From NCBI GenBank assembly GCA_905182785.1, contig CAJJDF010000067.1, positions 1 through 35,330 on the forward strand: a DNA stretch of 35,330 nt. Reading direction: 5' to 3'. Under the pieces are notes generated by a model. The model saw nothing but the letters and a program-made list of their open reading frames with translations, did no database searches and was not told the origin of the DNA. Both the position numbers and the translations under genes were made by a program. Shown one piece after another: positions 15,553-29,730 of the stretch (the stretch's first letter is position 1; each line of letters opens with the position of its first letter). This DNA is from an uncultured Flavobacteriales bacterium. Its GTDB lineage: Bacteria; Bacteroidota; Bacteroidia; Flavobacteriales_D; CAJJDF01.

Positions 15553-15570
15553 TTGGCACGAATATTGAAA
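15553..15570 (+). promoter_or_regulatory. Putative sigma-54 promoter (-24/-12)
   Basis: TTGGCACG at 15553-15560 and TTGAAA at 15565-15570. The GG and the following GA are separated by exactly 10 nt, the sigma-54 spacing, and the -24 half is a perfect consensus. The -12 half has TTGA in place of TTGC. It lies about 55 bp before the DUF4476 gene. Confidence 0.65.
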
Positions 15571-17714: not shown

Positions 17715-17750
17715 AAGCATCTAGATTTAATTATCTAGATGCTTTTTGCT
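17715..17750 (+). terminator. Rho-independent terminator of pyrE
   Basis: AAGCATCTAGA (17715-17725) pairs perfectly with TCTAGATGCTT (17734-17744) and is followed by TTTTGCTTT. It lies about 70 nt after the pyrE stop and rules out purC starts placed before 17745. Confidence 0.85.
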
Positions 17751-17771
17751 TTACCTCATTTTAAGAATCTT

Positions 17772-18716
17772 ATGGAACAAACACTTACTGCTACCAATTA
17801 TAATTTTCCTGGCCAAACAGCTATTTACAAAGGGAAAGTAAGAGATGTTTACAACATCAATGACGAAAAAATAGTTTTAATTGCTTCGGATAGAATTTCG
17901 GCATTCGATGCTGTTCTTCCAAAAGGAATCCCCTACAAAGGACAAATCTTAACCGCAATTGCTACCAAGTTTTTAAATGAAACGAGCGATTTAGTTCCAA
18001 ATTGGCTTGAGGCAAATCCAGATCCAAATGTGGCTGTAGGAAAATTCTGTGAGCCATTCATGGTAGAAATGGTGATTAGAGGTTATTTGGCTGGGCACGC
18101 TTGGCGTGAATACAAAGCTGGAAAAAGAATGATTTGTGGAGTACAAATGCCTGATGGAATGAAACAAAACGATAAGTTTCCTGTTCCACTAATTACACCT
18201 GCTACCAAAGCAGAAGATGGCGACCATGACGAAGATATTTCAAGAGAAAATATTATCTCTCAAGGGATTGTAAGCAAAGAAGATTACGAACAATTAGAAA
18301 AGTACACGAGAGATTTATTTCAAAGAGGAACTGAAATTGCTGCTAAGCAAGAATTAATTTTAGTAGATACCAAATATGAATTTGGAAAAAGAGACGGAGT
18401 CATTTATTTGATTGACGAAATTCACACTCCCGATTCTTCTCGTTTTTTCTATGCGGATGGTTATCAAGAAAGACAAGACAAAGACGAACAGCAAAAGCAA
18501 CTTTCTAAGGAATTTGTTAGAGAATGGCTAATAGAGAATGGTTTTCAAGGACTGGAAGGACAAGAAATTCCTCCAATTCCAGATTCATTTGTGAATACTA
18601 TCACAGAAAGATACACGGAATTGTATGAGAAAATTACTGGAGAAACTTTTGTGAAAGCTGATAATAGCAATTTGATAAATAGAATTGAGAAGAATGTAAC
18701 GGAGTATTTGAAGTAG
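17772..18716 (+). CDS. purC: Phosphoribosylaminoimidazole-succinocarboxamide synthase (SAICAR synthase)
   Basis: Joins CAIR and aspartate with ATP to make SAICAR in purine synthesis. I start at the ATG at 17772 ([15 protein letters not shown]), since an earlier in-frame ATG at 17739 falls inside the pyrE terminator. The 314-residue length corresponds to the longer, yeast Ade1-like form, not the roughly 240-residue Escherichia coli form. Signatures: [56 protein letters not shown] and LVDTKYEFG followed by [13 protein letters not shown]. It is closed by a very strong terminator that also marks the edge of the first accessory island. Confidence 0.96.
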
Positions 18717-18732
18717 GTAAATATTTTATAAA

Positions 18733-18772
18733 AAAAAAGCTTCAAATTCATCAGAATTTGAAGCTTTTTTTT
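18733..18772. terminator. Terminator after purC (symmetrical)
   Basis: Perfect 17-bp arms at 18733-18749 and 18754-18770 with a 4-nt loop (ATCA) and T tracts on both strands. It starts about 15 nt after the purC stop. It insulates the accessory island that follows. Confidence 0.92.
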
Positions 18773-18847
18773 GGCATTTGCCGAAACACAAAAAAATAGT
18801 TGTTTTTTTTCAAACAATTCACCTCTATCTACTTAAAAAAAATACTC

Positions 18848-18868
18848 TAGCCGTATATTATACGGCTA
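18848..18868. repeat. 21-bp palindrome
   Basis: TAGCCGTATA and TATACGGCTA flank a single central T, giving a perfect 10-bp inverted repeat. It could be an operator or a structural part of the island boundary. No T tract follows, so it is not a terminator. Confidence 0.6.
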
Positions 18869-18984
18869 TGCTTTTATAAAAAGCAAGAATAACGTAACTT
18901 AATAAAAAAATAAGTTTAGACACAAATCTTATAACCCTTTATAAATTATGAAGTTAAATGCTGAAAATTTACAATTAGAATACT

Positions 18985-18992
18985 TACATTTG
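18985..18992 (+). promoter_or_regulatory. Possible -7 box for the 19069 gene
   Basis: TACATTTG, matching TAnnTTTG, about 22 nt before the island leader element at 19014. The other island has the similar TATATTTA at the matching place (28099-28106), before the same leader. Confidence 0.35.
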
Positions 18993-19013
18993 AAAAACAA
19001 ACGAATCAACACG

Positions 19014-19054
19014 TAGTGGATATATAGTTAACTGTTAACTATATTCCATTGTTA
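19014..19054. repeat. Island leader element, copy 1 (palindromic)
   Basis: TAGTGGATATATAGTTAAC (19014-19032) is identical to 28116-28134, and the right part (TAACTATATTCCATT, 19036-19050) is identical to 28131-28145. In this copy ATATAGTTAAC and GTTAACTATAT form an 11-bp inverted repeat about a central T (19022-19044), made by an extra 7 nt (TGTTAAC) compared with copy 2. It ends 14 nt before the start codon of the first island gene. Confidence 0.8.
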
Positions 19055-19068
19055 TCATCTATTGAAAT

Positions 19069-19515
19069 ATGTCAAAAACACAAGAAGGAATTGAAAAAAG
19101 AATTGAAAAGGTAAATTACTACCAAAATAAACAATTTGAATCTTTTTATATTTTTCATAGACATATAACTACTATTTCACTTGGGTTTATAGGTTTGTTT
19201 ATAGGCTTAATACCTGAAAACTTATCTCTCCAGAATAAATATCTTTTCGTATCAACAGTAATTCTATTCGGACTGAGTATCCTTTTTTCCTTAATAACTC
19301 AGCATGGCGAAACACTTTTTTATAAGAATTCAGTTCGTGCGAGGGAAAAGATGCTGTTAGAGTACATTGACTCAGTGGACGGAATAAAATTCCAATCCGA
19401 ACACACAGATATAAATAAAGTTTATAAAGTTTCCGAGAAACTGACATATGTTTGTTTGTTATTATCGATTTTATCATTGATTATCTATGTTTGTTATTTG
19501 GTTTTTAATAAGTAA
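19069..19515 (+). CDS. Hypothetical membrane protein (accessory cassette gene)
   Basis: A 148-residue protein with a charged N-terminus (about 1-30), a helical hairpin in the membrane (about 36-52 and 58-78), a cytosolic-looking loop of about 45 residues (HGETLFYKNSVRAREKMLLE), and a third membrane helix near the C-terminus (about 125-146). I do not recognise the family. It is the first gene of the purC-helicase island and is preceded at once by the palindromic leader shared with the second island. Similar small membrane proteins are common cargo of mobile cassettes and phage defence loci, but nothing here shows a function. Confidence 0.65.
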   Translation: MSKTQEGIEKRIEKVNYYQNKQFESFYIFHRHITTISLGFIGLFIGLIPENLSLQNKYLFVSTVILFGLSILFSLITQHGETLFYKNSVRAREKMLLEYIDSVDGIKFQSEHTDINKVYKVSEKLTYVCLLLSILSLIIYVCYLVFNK

Positions 19516-19522
19516 TTTAAAG

Positions 19523-19570
19523 TAACAGAATGATAACAATATATATAAAAGTATAGTTGTTAGTCTGTTA
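19523..19570. repeat. Imperfect hairpin with paired outer and inner arms
   Basis: TAACAGA (19523-19529) pairs with TCTGTTA (19564-19570), and inside it AACAA (19535-19539) pairs with TTGTT (19557-19561). The unpaired gaps differ in length on the two sides (5 and 2 nt). This two-box layout with an asymmetric bulge resembles an integron attC site, but chance pairing in AT-rich DNA is possible. Confidence 0.4.
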
Positions 19571-19631
19571 TTCTTATTTTGTTTGTATTTTTGATATTAG
19601 TTAATTTATTAAGGTTGTCTGTATCTAAACA

Positions 19632-19655
19632 CTACGTTTCATACATTAACCGTTA
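19632..19655 (+). repeat. 24-bp direct repeat, left copy
   Basis: CTACGTTTCATACATTAACC followed by GTTA. It matches 21259-21282 in 23 of 24 positions (T in place of C in the middle). It ends 11 nt before the ATG of the nuclease-fusion gene at 19667, so the two copies bracket that gene as a 1.6-kb unit. Confidence 0.8.
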
Positions 19656-19666
19656 TAGCCATAAGA

Positions 19667-21112
19667 ATGAGTTACAATCCAACTGACATATCATCTATTT
19701 TAGAATTGAAAAACATCATCCAATCGAATATAATTGATACTGATATTATCATACGTGGTGAAATAATCAAAAGTCTTGGAGATGTAGAAAAAATAACTGG
19801 ATTTCTTGGAATTAGTGACGCAAATATTCAAAACCTTGGAAACCTTAAAATAGTGGAAAAAGATTTTTGGATAAGTTCATATTTTGTTTCATCAGAATTA
19901 TCATCATTAAATAAATTAGAATTTGTTGGCGGTGATATTGGACTTAGATACTCAAAAATAAAAGATTTAGGTAATTTAAAAAAAGTTGGTGGTAGACTTA
20001 GTTTAAGAGATACAGAAATTGAGAGCTTAGGTAATTTAGAATATGTTGGTGGTGATTTATTTTTACCTAAAAGAATTGAAAAAAAAATTAACCTTTCAAA
20101 AGTAAAAGTAGAAGGGAAAGTTCGTTTTTGGAATGATAATAAAAAGAAAAAAGAAATAATTTCTAAAGAAAAAAGAAATGCTCATATAGAAAACATACAA
20201 AATTCAAAAAACAATAATGATTACGAAAAGGCTTGGGAATTAATATGTCAAAACGAATATATTAGTTTAAATAGTATTCTTGAATTTGAAAACAAACTTA
20301 ATCGAGAACTTTTAAATGGAAATTTAATAGCGAAAATTGCAGGATATAGCCATTTAACTGAATTTGGTCAAAACAACATTAATCAAATAAAACCTTTTGC
20401 GAAAAAACAACTTCAAATATATAAAATCGAAAAGGGCAAGAATTTTTTTGACCTATTTTTTAAAAATGGTAAACCAATTAGGACAAAGAAAGAATCTAAA
20501 GTTATTGATAAAAAGATAATATTTGGTTTGTTTAAAAAACAACATACTGAAGTTAAATATGTGTATAATTCTGAATATTATAAAGATTTTTTCATATCAA
20601 CTTCGGAATACGAATTATATAAATCTATTGATGATAATCAATCAATATCTGGTTTCAATTCTACTATACCACATGTAGTTGAAAAAGCAGTATTCAACCA
20701 ATGCAGAATAATATTAAAAAAAGCAGAAGATTTATATCGAGAAAAAATTGGAATGCCAAAAGTTGGAGAAGGTTGGATTAGTGAAACTGAATTGTTTTAT
20801 AAAATTTCTCAATATTTTAAAGAATATGAAGTTATACATCATGCCTCTCCAGATTGGCTCGGAAGGCAACATTTAGATATTTATCTCCCAAGTCTAAATA
20901 TAGGTATTGAATATCAAGGTGCACAACATTATGAACCTATTGAGTTTTTTGGTGGAGAAGAAGCATTTAAAAAATCAGTCGAAAGAGATAAAAGAAAAAA
21001 GGAACTTTGTGCAAAAAATAATTGCGTCTTAATTTATGCAGAAAAAGGCTATGACCTGAATGAAATAACAACAACAATTAAACAAGTAATAACGGTGTAC
21101 AACACTATATAA
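19667..21112 (+). CDS. Repeat-domain protein with C-terminal PD-(D/E)XK nuclease domain
   Basis: A 481-residue soluble protein. Residues about 35-150 are short solenoid repeats of about 20-25 residues, built on LGNLxxVGGxLxLxxxxIxxL, like a short leucine-rich array. The middle (about 160-340) is lysine-rich and unassigned. The C-terminal part (about 365-475) is a PD-(D/E)XK endonuclease-like domain of the Vsr/DUF559 kind: E374 in the first helix, GRQHLDIYLP with D404, then NIGIEYQGAQHYEP with E415 and Q417 (ExQ in place of ExK), then D441 and a last strand CVLIYAE. A DNA-cleaving role is inferred. It lies alone between two direct repeats, which suggests a mobile cassette carrying a defence-type nuclease. 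Confidence 0.75.
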   Translation: MSYNPTDISSILELKNIIQSNIIDTDIIIRGEIIKSLGDVEKITGFLGISDANIQNLGNLKIVEKDFWISSYFVSSELSSLNKLEFVGGDIGLRYSKIKDLGNLKKVGGRLSLRDTEIESLGNLEYVGGDLFLPKRIEKKINLSKVKVEGKVRFWNDNKKKKEIISKEKRNAHIENIQNSKNNNDYEKAWELICQNEYISLNSILEFENKLNRELLNGNLIAKIAGYSHLTEFGQNNINQIKPFAKKQLQIYKIEKGKNFFDLFFKNGKPIRTKKESKVIDKKIIFGLFKKQHTEVKYVYNSEYYKDFFISTSEYELYKSIDDNQSISGFNSTIPHVVEKAVFNQCRIILKKAEDLYREKIGMPKVGEGWISETELFYKISQYFKEYEVIHHASPDWLGRQHLDIYLPSLNIGIEYQGAQHYEPIEFFGGEEAFKKSVERDKRKKELCAKNNCVLIYAEKGYDLNEITTTIKQVITVYNTI

Positions 21113-21123
21113 AAATAATAAGG

Positions 21124-21249
21124 GTTAAGTGCCAAACCCAAAGTTGGTGCATATTTACAAAGTCCGCCAAATTTACAATTTGACGGTTCAAAGAAAATTA
21201 ACGGTAAAATTGTAAATTTGGCTAAGTGTTAAATCGAAAGTAAGTGCAT
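21124..21249 (+). repeat. Pair of degenerate 29-bp direct repeats
   Basis: 21124-21152 and 21221-21249 share the pattern G(T/C)TAAGTG..AAA.....AAAG...GTGCAT with about 21 of 29 positions equal. They flank the long hairpin at 21166-21222 and so give the spacer after the nuclease gene an ordered repeat-hairpin-repeat design. Confidence 0.6.
21166..21222. repeat. Long inverted repeat (16-bp perfect stem)
   Basis: GCCAAATTTACAATTT (21166-21181) and AAATTGTAAATTTGGC (21207-21222) are perfect reverse complements with a 25-nt loop. The loop side continues with partial pairing (ACGGTT / AACGGT). There is no T tract, so it is more likely a recombination or structural element than a terminator. Confidence 0.8.
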
Positions 21250-21258
21250 TTTAATCCG

Positions 21259-21282
21259 CTACGTTTCATACACTAACCGTTA
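21259..21282 (+). repeat. 24-bp direct repeat, right copy
   Basis: CTACGTTTCATACACTAACC followed by GTTA, the partner of 19632-19655. It closes the 1.6-kb unit that holds the nuclease-fusion gene. Confidence 0.8.
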
Positions 21283-21363
21283 AAATAATTGAATAAAAAT
21301 CTATTAATAAATACTTTCAAGATATTTCATCTATTGAAAATACTCGAACCGACAATCAAAAAT

Positions 21364-22788
21364 CTAATCTTCTTCCTCTGTTCCCTCAAACAGCATCTTG
21401 TGAAAATTAGCTAAATATAATTTGGTTTGCGCCCTTGTAAATGCGGTGTACATCCATCTTAAATATTCTACGTTTACCATTTCCTTGGTCAAATATCCTT
21501 GATCTATAAATACGGTATCCCATTGTCCACCCTGTGATTTATGGCAAGTTACAGCATAGGAAAACTTCACTTGAAGTGCATTAAAGTAAGGATCTTTCAG
21601 TACTTTTTCCATTCTATCTCTTCGCCCTGGGTATTCATCAAAATATTCTTTTTCTATTTCGTGGTACAAATTCTTGAGTTGCGCTCGAGGAATACTAGTC
21701 GTTTCTACCATAATTGCATCCAACATTAGTTTGACTTCAAACGGCTGTTCTTCTGGATAATCAATTAAGCGCACTTCGGCAGTAGCAAATTTAAATCCAT
21801 ACAATTCTTCTGTTTTTCTAACTCTTAATATTTCTACGATATCTCCATTGGCAATAAAACCCGCTTTAGATTTATCGGACAACCAATGGTAATTATTTTT
21901 TACCACCATCATCAAATCACCTGCATCTATTTCCTCTTCTTTGTAAAGTATCCGAGCTCTGATGTGCTGATTAAATAAGTTTGCTCTTTTATTGGAACGA
22001 CAAAGCACAATGCAGTTTTCCACTCCAAAATTACTGTAAGAACCTTCTAGCTCGTCTTGCAAATCATTCCCATTCACTCTTATCACGTCACTAAATTTAC
22101 GATTAGAAAGGAAAGGTAGAAATTCTTCCTGCTCAATTTTGTCTCTAATTTGTGTCGCATTAAACAAAATTCCCGATTCTTCTTTTTGCCTTACTACTTG
22201 GGTTAATTTATACTGAAATACTTCGGCATAGAAAGTAGATACTAAAAATTCAGAATCCAAAGCTCTACTCAATTCTTCTCCTACTGGCGGAAGCTGAGCC
22301 GTATCCCCTACAAATAAAACACTGCAATTTTTTCCAGAATATACATATTCCATCAAGTCATCTAACAGTGATTTTTTATCCATGTAAGAATTATCGCTTA
22401 TCATAGAAGCTTCATCCACAACAAATAAAGTGTTTTTTGCCGTGTTATTTTTCAATACAAAAACGCTTTTACCACCCACATGTTTGTAGGTGTAAATAAT
22501 TTTATGAATTGTAAATGCCCTTCTTTTAGAATAAGAAGAAATTACTTTTGCAGCTCTTCCTGTAGGAGCCAAAAGCATGGTGCTGTAATTTAATTTTCCT
22601 AAAATTTGAGTCAATGCAGAAACCAAAGAAGTTTTCCCTGTTCCGGCATATCCACTCATTACACCAATTTTCTTTGGAAAAGAGGAAGTTAAAAATTTAT
22701 GCAGTACTTCAATTAAATTTTCTTGATCCTCTGTAAAGGGAAATTCGAAGTTTTCTTGGATTAATTCTCTAAATTTTTCTATTTGCAT
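21364..22788 (-). CDS. RecD-like SF1 DNA helicase
   Basis: A 474-residue ATP-dependent helicase of superfamily 1, in the RecD2/Dda branch. Motif I is GYAGTGKTSL, motif Ia APTGRAAKVIS, motif II VVDEASM, motif III GDTAQLPPVG, and the C-terminal motifs are SYAVTCHKSQGGQWD and RWMYTAFTRAQTKLYL. A UvrD_C_2-type domain is thus complete. The short N-terminus has no RecD-type extension, so it probably works without RecBC. It is a conserved flavobacterial gene and marks the right border of the first accessory island. Confidence 0.92.
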   Translation of the reverse strand: MQIEKFRELIQENFEFPFTEDQENLIEVLHKFLTSSFPKKIGVMSGYAGTGKTSLVSALTQILGKLNYSTMLLAPTGRAAKVISSYSKRRAFTIHKIIYTYKHVGGKSVFVLKNNTAKNTLFVVDEASMISDNSYMDKKSLLDDLMEYVYSGKNCSVLFVGDTAQLPPVGEELSRALDSEFLVSTFYAEVFQYKLTQVVRQKEESGILFNATQIRDKIEQEEFLPFLSNRKFSDVIRVNGNDLQDELEGSYSNFGVENCIVLCRSNKRANLFNQHIRARILYKEEEIDAGDLMMVVKNNYHWLSDKSKAGFIANGDIVEILRVRKTEELYGFKFATAEVRLIDYPEEQPFEVKLMLDAIMVETTSIPRAQLKNLYHEIEKEYFDEYPGRRDRMEKVLKDPYFNALQVKFSYAVTCHKSQGGQWDTVFIDQGYLTKEMVNVEYLRWMYTAFTRAQTKLYLANFHKMLFEGTEEED

Positions 22789-28872: not shown

Positions 28873-29730
28873 ATGACAAAAAGAGATTACATAATCCGCC
28901 AGATAGCAAAGACAAATAAAAAGAATTACGAAAATTATGTCGTAACTCGAATATACCATTTATTAAATCGAACAGATATCAAATTTATAACTCAACAATA
29001 TGTGAATCGCCCTGAAGGTCATGCTTTGACAGATATGTACTTACCTCAAATACAATTACATATCGAAATTGACGAACCCTTTCATAAGAAGCAAATCGAG
29101 TCAGATATTGATAGAGAGACGGATATAATACAAGCAACAGAACATCATATAAGCCGAATTAAAATAACCGAAGATTTAGATTCGATTAATAACCAAATAG
29201 CAGATTTGGTTAAAAAAATAAGAACTAAAATTAAAAGCTTGGAAAAAAGCGGACAATGGGAATCATGGAATTTAGATAAAGAATTTAATCCAAATCATTA
29301 CCGTGAAAAAGGATATTTAGACGTTCAAGAAAATCCAGCTTTCAGAAAAATAGTTGACGCTTGTAATTGCTTAGGACAAAATTATAAAGCCGTTCAGCAA
29401 GCTTGGTTTAAAAGTAAAATTTATCCAAACCATAATTTATGGTTTCCTAAATTTTACGAAAACGAAGATTGGGATAATCGAATCAGTAAAGACGGAACAG
29501 TAATAACAGAGAAGTGTAAAAATCCAGAGAAATATGATGCTTGGTTTAAAGGAGTGACTTCTAATTTAGTAAAGCGTATAACGTTTCCAAGAAGTGTAGA
29601 TAATCTTGGGTTTAGACTTTATAGATTTGCAGGGATATTTGAGACGGATTTAGAGTTATCCTCTATAGAGAATGGAGTAATTCATAGACTAAAAGAAACG
29701 AGAATAGAAATAAAAAAAGATGACAGATGA
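28873..29730 (+). CDS. PvuRts1I/AbaSI-like modification-dependent restriction endonuclease
   Basis: A 285-residue protein that I match to the AbaSI family, stand-alone type IV enzymes that cut DNA carrying 5-hydroxymethyl- or glucosyl-hydroxymethylcytosine, as in T-even-like phages. The N-terminal part (about 1-120) is a Vsr-like PD-(D/E)XK fold: KKNYENYVVTRIYHLLN, then FITQQYVNRPEGHALTDMYL with D54, then LHIEIDEPFHKKQIESD with E65 and D67. The C-terminal part (about 155-260) corresponds to the SRA-like base-reading domain, with NHNLWFPKFYENEDWDNRI and LYRFAGIFETD. Length agrees with AbaSI and PvuRts1I (about 290-310). No methylase is adjacent, as expected for type IV. Family assignment is from memory of the sequences; activity is inferred. 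Confidence 0.78.
   Translation: MTKRDYIIRQIAKTNKKNYENYVVTRIYHLLNRTDIKFITQQYVNRPEGHALTDMYLPQIQLHIEIDEPFHKKQIESDIDRETDIIQATEHHISRIKITEDLDSINNQIADLVKKIRTKIKSLEKSGQWESWNLDKEFNPNHYREKGYLDVQENPAFRKIVDACNCLGQNYKAVQQAWFKSKIYPNHNLWFPKFYENEDWDNRISKDGTVITEKCKNPEKYDAWFKGVTSNLVKRITFPRSVDNLGFRLYRFAGIFETDLELSSIENGVIHRLKETRIEIKKDDR

Follow-up and report, generated by a model that had tools for sequence, protein, structure and literature searches.

How did two rare genes come to lie between purC and a RecD/PIF1-like helicase gene in an uncultured Flavobacteriales bacterium? The window, the whole stretch of 35,330 nucleotides analysed here, is one entire contig (C67) of a 2.32 Mb genome in 73 contigs (G000). 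The original prediction, made from the letters of the window, described an accessory island of two single-gene units between conserved genes, with the geometry of integron cassettes (one open reading frame (ORF) plus a structured recombination site). Our analysis supports that geometry and finds cassettes of 601 and 1627 bp between the same two neighbours. We put the probability at about 0.86 that the island consists of two cassettes of an integron-like recombination system of the Bacteroidota, in a genome that lost or never had the integrase. The elements of the locus are as follows.

17739-18716, plus strand: purC, the conserved neighbour on the left.
19008-19053, no strand assigned: site A, an att-like palindrome, AAC-ACGTAG-TGGATATATAGTTAAC..GTTAACTATATTCCA-TT-GTT, at the left edge (detector score 12.6).
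19051-19652, plus strand: cassette 1, with a period of 601 bp between the GTT at 19051 and the G at 19652.
19069-19515, plus strand: the gene of cassette 1, an ORF for a membrane protein of 148 residues.
19535-19654, plus strand: site B, the degenerate 120-bp attC-like site of cassette 1 (AACAATATATATAAAAGTATAG...CTACGTTTCATACATTAACCGTT).
19632-19655, plus strand: left 24-bp repeat, the 3' (L'-R') end of site B.
19652-21279, plus strand: cassette 2, with a period of 1627 bp between the GTT at 19652 and the G at 21279.
19667-21112, plus strand: the gene of cassette 2, an ORF of 481 residues.
21101-21281, plus strand: site C, a 181-bp attC-like site with a central hairpin, which closes cassette 2.
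21166-21222, plus strand: the central hairpin of site C, with a near-identical hairpin at L082:14672-14733.
21259-21282, plus strand: right 24-bp repeat, the 3' (L'-R') end of site C.
21364-22788, minus strand: the RecD/PIF1-like helicase gene, the conserved neighbour on the right.

The two 24-bp direct repeats proved to lie where they had been placed, 1627 nt apart from start to start and identical at 23 of 24 positions, and the left copy does end 11 nt 5' of a start codon, the ATG at 19667. With up to three mismatches allowed, the window has two occurrences of the 19-nt core of the repeat, where shuffled sequences average 0.08 and none of 100 reaches two, and the 24-mer occurs four times in the whole genome against none for its reversed control. 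On these controls a chance origin was rejected. As the border of a unit the repeat is real, yet it is only the 3' end of a longer site, since the full sites begin with AAC 120-181 bp upstream. The perfect 16-bp inverted repeat seen earlier is the outer part of the 23-nt arms of the site C hairpin (21166-21188 and 21200-21222), which are 91% complementary. A repeat search did not recover the degenerate direct copies that had been described around this hairpin; the flanks are instead poorly complementary halves of an outer stem. Site A is a third att-like site, beyond those listed at first.

Sites of this kind are found well outside the window. The two other copies of the 24-mer in the genome are diverged (C36:63767-63790 and C45:18760-18783), and a single attC-like site was noted at C36:63768-63890 (L005:9730-9852). 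The 24-mer also recurs in sister genomes, beside different genes, and an order-wide search with the 19-mer returned 30 sites against two control matches. In public genomes an exact 26-mer turned up in at least 119 stretches; nearly all are from Flavobacteriales, Cytophagales and Bacteroidales, with outliers in a Gracilimonas and a KSB1 metagenome-assembled genome. Mobility was to be doubted had the repeats occurred only here; they recur in this genome, in sister species and across the Bacteroidota. Site C itself is identical at 164 of 191 alignment columns (86%) to L082:14607-14797, in a genome from another family of the same order (G007), where the site follows an unrelated gene of 191 residues.

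We aligned the 3' halves with the best upstream AAC to define site types. One type, AACAATGTATATAAAAAATAGGCGAAACAGT...CGCCTACTTTTCATATACTAACCGTT, is exactly 123 bp long and occurs at about 25 places beside unrelated genes, with no match to it in phage records; other sites measure 56-80 or 180-200 bp. A fuzzy scan for the 3' half picked up only the 123-bp type, so sites were sought by structure instead, with a detector for the pattern AAC - short spacer - stem ... stem - spacer - GTT; the dfrA1 and aadA1 attC sites of Escherichia coli p135-2 served as positive control. Across 123 loci (902 kb) the detector reported 235 sites, compared with 19 in Markov shuffles; nearly all the loci had been chosen for one site, so that what is informative is the strand bias and any excess over a single site in each locus. 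The detector demands pairing, and pair counts on its output are therefore circular. The sites have the AAC...GTT ends and imperfect palindrome of attC, with spacers usually of 3 nt and 5-6 nt. Site C folds with a z of -3.0, which arises from the central hairpin, and the L082 and L237 sites, with z of -2.9 and -3.8, fold well.

Hairpins that lie 3' of genes might also be transcription terminators or REP-like (repetitive extragenic palindromic) elements with no role in DNA mobility. Site B is indeed poorly structured, and Rfam, in which a search of 99.6 kb matched no family, is silent either way. We nevertheless rejected terminators alone as extremely unlikely, as they leave unexplained the fixed 123-bp length with GTT borders, as well as the self-complementary starts, the exact duplication and the attI beside a recombinase that are described below.

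An integron cassette begins with bases (TTRRRY) that can pair with the R'' box at its far end. We compared each cassette start with its own R'' box in the same way, and 78 of 123 consecutive site pairs matched at six or more of the seven bases after GTT, against 2.3% of unrelated pairs; several failing pairs span gaps where the detector had overlooked a site. Each of the 78 validated cassettes has one main ORF, on the attC strand in 74, which starts a median of 32 nt after the GTT and covers a median of 87% of the unit. The 74 cassette proteins fall into 70 families. In the window, cassette 1 starts with GTTATCAT, and its own R'' box (ATGATAAC, 19530-19537) is the reverse complement of that start. 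The C45 site (18760, L004) closes a small lipoprotein gene, and judged by eye this unit, which starts with GTTAGCTCTC and ends with GAGAGCTAAC, has the same self-complementarity.

The boundaries fall at the same place. In 27 pairs of loci that share a cassette start and have different left neighbours, identity begins at the GTT, with 0-5 extra identical bases upstream, and where attI is the left neighbour it begins at the GTT exactly. On two Riemerella plasmids a tet(X) cassette, GTTATGTGCCATTTTTGAATG, follows attC sites that differ from each other, and on Acinetobacter p80-1-2-tetX3 it follows a recombinase gene and palindrome (attI). Could homologous or microhomology recombination between attC-like repeats have produced this pattern with no dedicated recombinase? 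The sites are often nearly identical, above all those of the 123-bp type, many are distant from every recombinase of this family, the window genome has no such recombinase, and a published transfer in Riemerella used natural transformation (PMC13148043). However, the breaks fall at the GTT and not within the repeat, even with dissimilar left neighbours including attI, the published integration took place without flanking homology, and self-complementary starts are not expected from homologous recombination. We regard a purely homologous route as improbable.

In G007, a single-contig genome, a gene for a 381-residue recombinase (L082:9379-10524) leads a same-strand array with genes for D12 methyltransferase, NO-VEIN-domain, penicillin-binding/beta-lactamase-like and DUF6998 proteins and several unknowns. 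Sites ending in CATATACTAACCGTTA lie at 15564, 16351 and 18894, and the array includes an exact tandem duplication of a 787-bp unit of gene plus site. All three matches to the CATATACTAACCGTTA 19-mer in this 4 Mb genome fall within 9 kb of the recombinase gene. In another genome (G004) the 24-mer stands behind a one-gene unit whose other neighbour is a divergent gene for a 277-residue tyrosine recombinase. Many array recombinases carry an N-terminal extension of about 100 residues (for example L082 and L074), which is absent from this G004 protein. The recombinase gene is usually upstream of, and co-directional with, the array.

In twelve arrays led by a recombinase gene, we used the R'' box of the first site downstream to predict where the first cassette begins; 11 of these starts lie 31-111 bp past the recombinase stop codon. 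In L180, the twelfth, the first cassette's own site escaped detection, yet a cassette start, GTTATGCGG, is found at the corresponding place. The attI-like sequence of L180 is the same as that of L148, both from Algoriphagus, and their first cassettes differ. An attI next to the integrase gene is thus seen in relatives, and the window has a candidate attI only. Thirteen base pairs of site A (TAGTGGATATATA, 19014-19026) are identical to the presumed attI between recombinase and tet(X3) on Acinetobacter p80-1-2-tetX3, at nearly the same distance from the GTT, a match found post hoc. Site A would be either a candidate attI without its integrase gene or a degenerate attC. No integrase remnant was found to its left, in 18600-19100. 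The earlier statement that no integrase is nearby was correct and extends to the whole genome, which contains no recombinase of the array family, the best match being a Xer protein (27% identity, about 54 bits).

The array recombinases differ from IntI in one region. Between the arginines of box I and box II they have 92-97 residues, close to Xer proteins (95-99), against 134 in seven IntI proteins including IntI1, and they are without about 42 residues of the IntI-specific domain. The reference was IntI1 of Aeromonas; the E. coli p135-2 integrase, 37 residues short, was dropped. Their best solved relatives are an archaeal XerC-like protein and then VchIntIA (2A3V), against which 21 query residues stand in place of 64 chain residues. 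Most nevertheless end in an IntI-like tail, (I/V)(K/R)SP(L/F)D, which Xer proteins do not have. They form a branch of the tree apart from IntI (branch support 88%, 100% for IntI, deep nodes weak), and score 195-213 bits with TIGR02249, under the cut-off of 265. The IntI-specific domain is held to be required for attC recombination.

These differences bear on whether the window might hold canonical integron cassettes, as in a cluster of attC sites lacking an integron-integrase (CALIN), served by an ordinary IntI with its specific domain. Such clusters share the architecture seen here, from AAC/GTT ends and imperfect palindromes to self-complementary starts and an attI by the integrase, and 84 of the 296 genomes that were sampled from the phylum have a canonical IntI scoring over the TIGR02249 cut-off. 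Other classes account for nearly all of these, though: in the class of the window genome only one of 295 genomes is over the cut-off, and 113 others match below it, nearly always only at positions ~2-180. The R boxes also depart from the consensus, with GTTRRRY in 14 of 213 R' and RYYYAAC in 15 of 213 R'' boxes, and the shorter interval between boxes I and II and the separate branch of the array recombinases argue in the same direction. An ordinary CALIN was rejected on the IntI and R-box results, and we consider it quite unlikely. The system resembles integrons in every comparative test made except these two strict ones; we therefore class it as an integron-like variant.

What can be read in the sequences, namely the sites with their GTT boundaries, the self-complementary starts, the reuse of cassettes, the order of recombinase, attI and array, and the missing IntI-specific domain, would fit together as follows. 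A complete system would consist of a gene for an IntI-like tyrosine recombinase, then an attI-like site, then a co-oriented array of cassettes, each made of one ORF and an attC-like imperfect palindrome (nnnnAAC - 3 nt - L'' ... L' - 5-6 nt - GTTnnnn). Recombination at the GTT, presumably on a folded single-stranded attC, would place a cassette behind another attC or at attI. The cassette would retain its own TTnnnn start, which would therefore be complementary to its own R'' box.

Several observations weigh against an integron-like origin of the island. Site B folds no better than shuffles (z -0.7), and the outer stem of site C is absent from its predicted fold. The start of cassette 2, GTTATAGCC, mismatches its own R'' box, GTGTACAAC, which breaks the self-complementarity rule; cassette 2 may therefore be two cassettes fused by deletion. 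Homologues of both window genes have no att sites in their flanks, although this can also be graded as neutral. That the IntI-like recombinase would be the acting enzyme is suggested by comparison, and few of the 20 recombinase loci from our first search for relatives have arrays visible to the detector or by eye. Among L070-L088 the detector mostly found no array, and many of these contigs break off at the recombinase gene or close to it. Related recombinases also pair with IS91-type transposases, and family membership alone is therefore no proof of an integron role. IS91-family transposases accompany tyrosine recombinases at L238, L257 and L260, and in the tree the recombinases of L238 and L257 lie near those of the arrays or near IntI. 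Elements of this family that carry an accessory tyrosine recombinase resemble the present system in having related recombinases (L238, L257), but theirs is paired with a transposase, whereas the arrays read here have no transposase between recombinase and attI.

Sister species bear on the history of the two cassettes. In three genomes of the same genus (G001-G003) purC and the helicase gene are kept, and the gap between them holds a gene for a kelch-like secreted protein of about 545 residues, with no full copy in the window genome. The gap is variable because the sisters carry a different gene there. The original prediction would have lost ground if all sisters had shared the same genes; both window genes are absent from the gap in all three. 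A clean empty site was not seen among them. Of the mobility claim in the original prediction, past insertion of cassettes is supported, while with no integrase and with degenerate sites the cassettes are unlikely to move today. In the likeliest history, the cassettes were inserted by an integrase that was later lost, or that acted from elsewhere, and then decayed. They may accordingly have been delivered in trans or stranded through loss of the integrase.

Elsewhere the same sites separate resistance genes, on Riemerella anatipestifer NZ_CP072192.1 and NZ_CP073240.1 and Myroides odoratimimus p63039, and unknown genes on a Persicobacter plasmid. At L236 and L237 (Riemerella) and L238 (Myroides), estT, blaOXA, tet(X), lnu(I), blaMYO-1, aadS, APH and a RelE/HTH (helix-turn-helix) gene pair adjoin attC-like sites or lie between them. 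A recent study (PMC13148043, 2026) reported that R. anatipestifer ATCC 11845 acquired aph(3')-IVb, together with 27 bp of upstream and 140 bp of downstream sequence, by natural transformation and without flanking homology. The 140-bp segment is reported to fold like attC, and the authors name no recombinase. In the plasmid copy from RCAD0416 (L237, NZ_CP073240.1), which lies in an array of the present kind, the gene has 789 bp with its stop codon and the GTT-to-GTT distance (8220-7264) is 956 = 27+789+140. A segment with exactly the length predicted here, one cassette, has therefore been shown by others to integrate independently of homology. The study concerns one gene and does not describe a recombinase, attI, cassette rule or wider family. 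The L237 plasmid also carries the relE-HTH pair by which the locus of that insertion is marked, with an attC-like site behind it (L237:2558-2680).

A second known element is the recombinase-tet(X3) module of Acinetobacter. Its recombinase, annotated merely as a generic tyrosine recombinase, falls inside the array branch next to a Belliella array integrase (99% bootstrap), and its tet(X3) segment shares its starting GTT with the Riemerella tet(X) cassette. In contrast to the arrays, the attC behind tet(X3) is truncated, and the module is joined to a resolvase gene and an IS91-like element. To judge from these features, it looks like a captured piece of a Bacteroidota integron-like array. Recombinase and tet(X3), the latter beginning at the cassette GTT, lie at 4052-6073 of L253 (NZ_CP041297.1), an Acinetobacter plasmid.

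Like these systems, integrons combine a tyrosine recombinase, an insertion point and a one-directional array of single-gene cassettes, with AAC...GTT imperfect palindromes that have unequal unpaired spacers, self-complementary starts and resistance cassettes on plasmids. The present systems differ in a recombinase without the ~42 IntI-specific residues, in R boxes off RYYYAAC/GTTRRRY, in spacers of 3 and 5-6 nt and in an integrase gene that usually runs in the direction of the array. Bacteroidetes are regarded as almost free of integrons, and the IntegronFinder 2.0 survey lists one complete integron for Bacteroidetes proper, in Salinibacter ruber M1 (PMC9024848). Integrons are recognised by a domain that is absent here, and standard tools would therefore be expected to miss this system. 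We found no earlier description of integrons in Flavobacteriia or Bacteroidia in the open literature, subscription papers and preprints being outside the search, and the Riemerella study is the only solid prior lead.

We lean towards a wider reading in which the Bacteroidia have their own branch of integrons without the IntI-specific domain. It would be an unrecognised vehicle for accessory and resistance genes (tet(X), OXA, estT, MYO-1, aadS) and the source of the Acinetobacter module, with the window as a stranded pair of cassettes. If true, this would explain how single genes, including clinically important resistance genes, gather in Flavobacteriales, Cytophagales and Bacteroidales, supply a mechanism for the unexplained homology-free integration in Riemerella, and suggest where the recombinase-tet(X3) module came from. 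It would also offer a natural test of whether the IntI-specific domain is needed to recombine a folded attC.

Both window genes are rare. Homologues of the 148-residue protein, which has a weak PADLOC match to Csx27 (E 1.1e-4, 20.6 bits), occur in four of 294 other genomes of the class, and those of the 481-residue protein in five of the 294. The latter, described in the original prediction as a nuclease fusion and here a putative nuclease at most, has no family in Pfam, NCBIfam or PADLOC; its C-terminal part (346-476) has homologues that are 51-53% identical in two other genomes. Elsewhere in the window, on the plus strand at 28873-29730, lies a gene for a PvuRts1I-like modified-cytosine restriction enzyme with an SRA domain (PF21598, PF18491; PADLOC mREase_II, E 4.4e-91).

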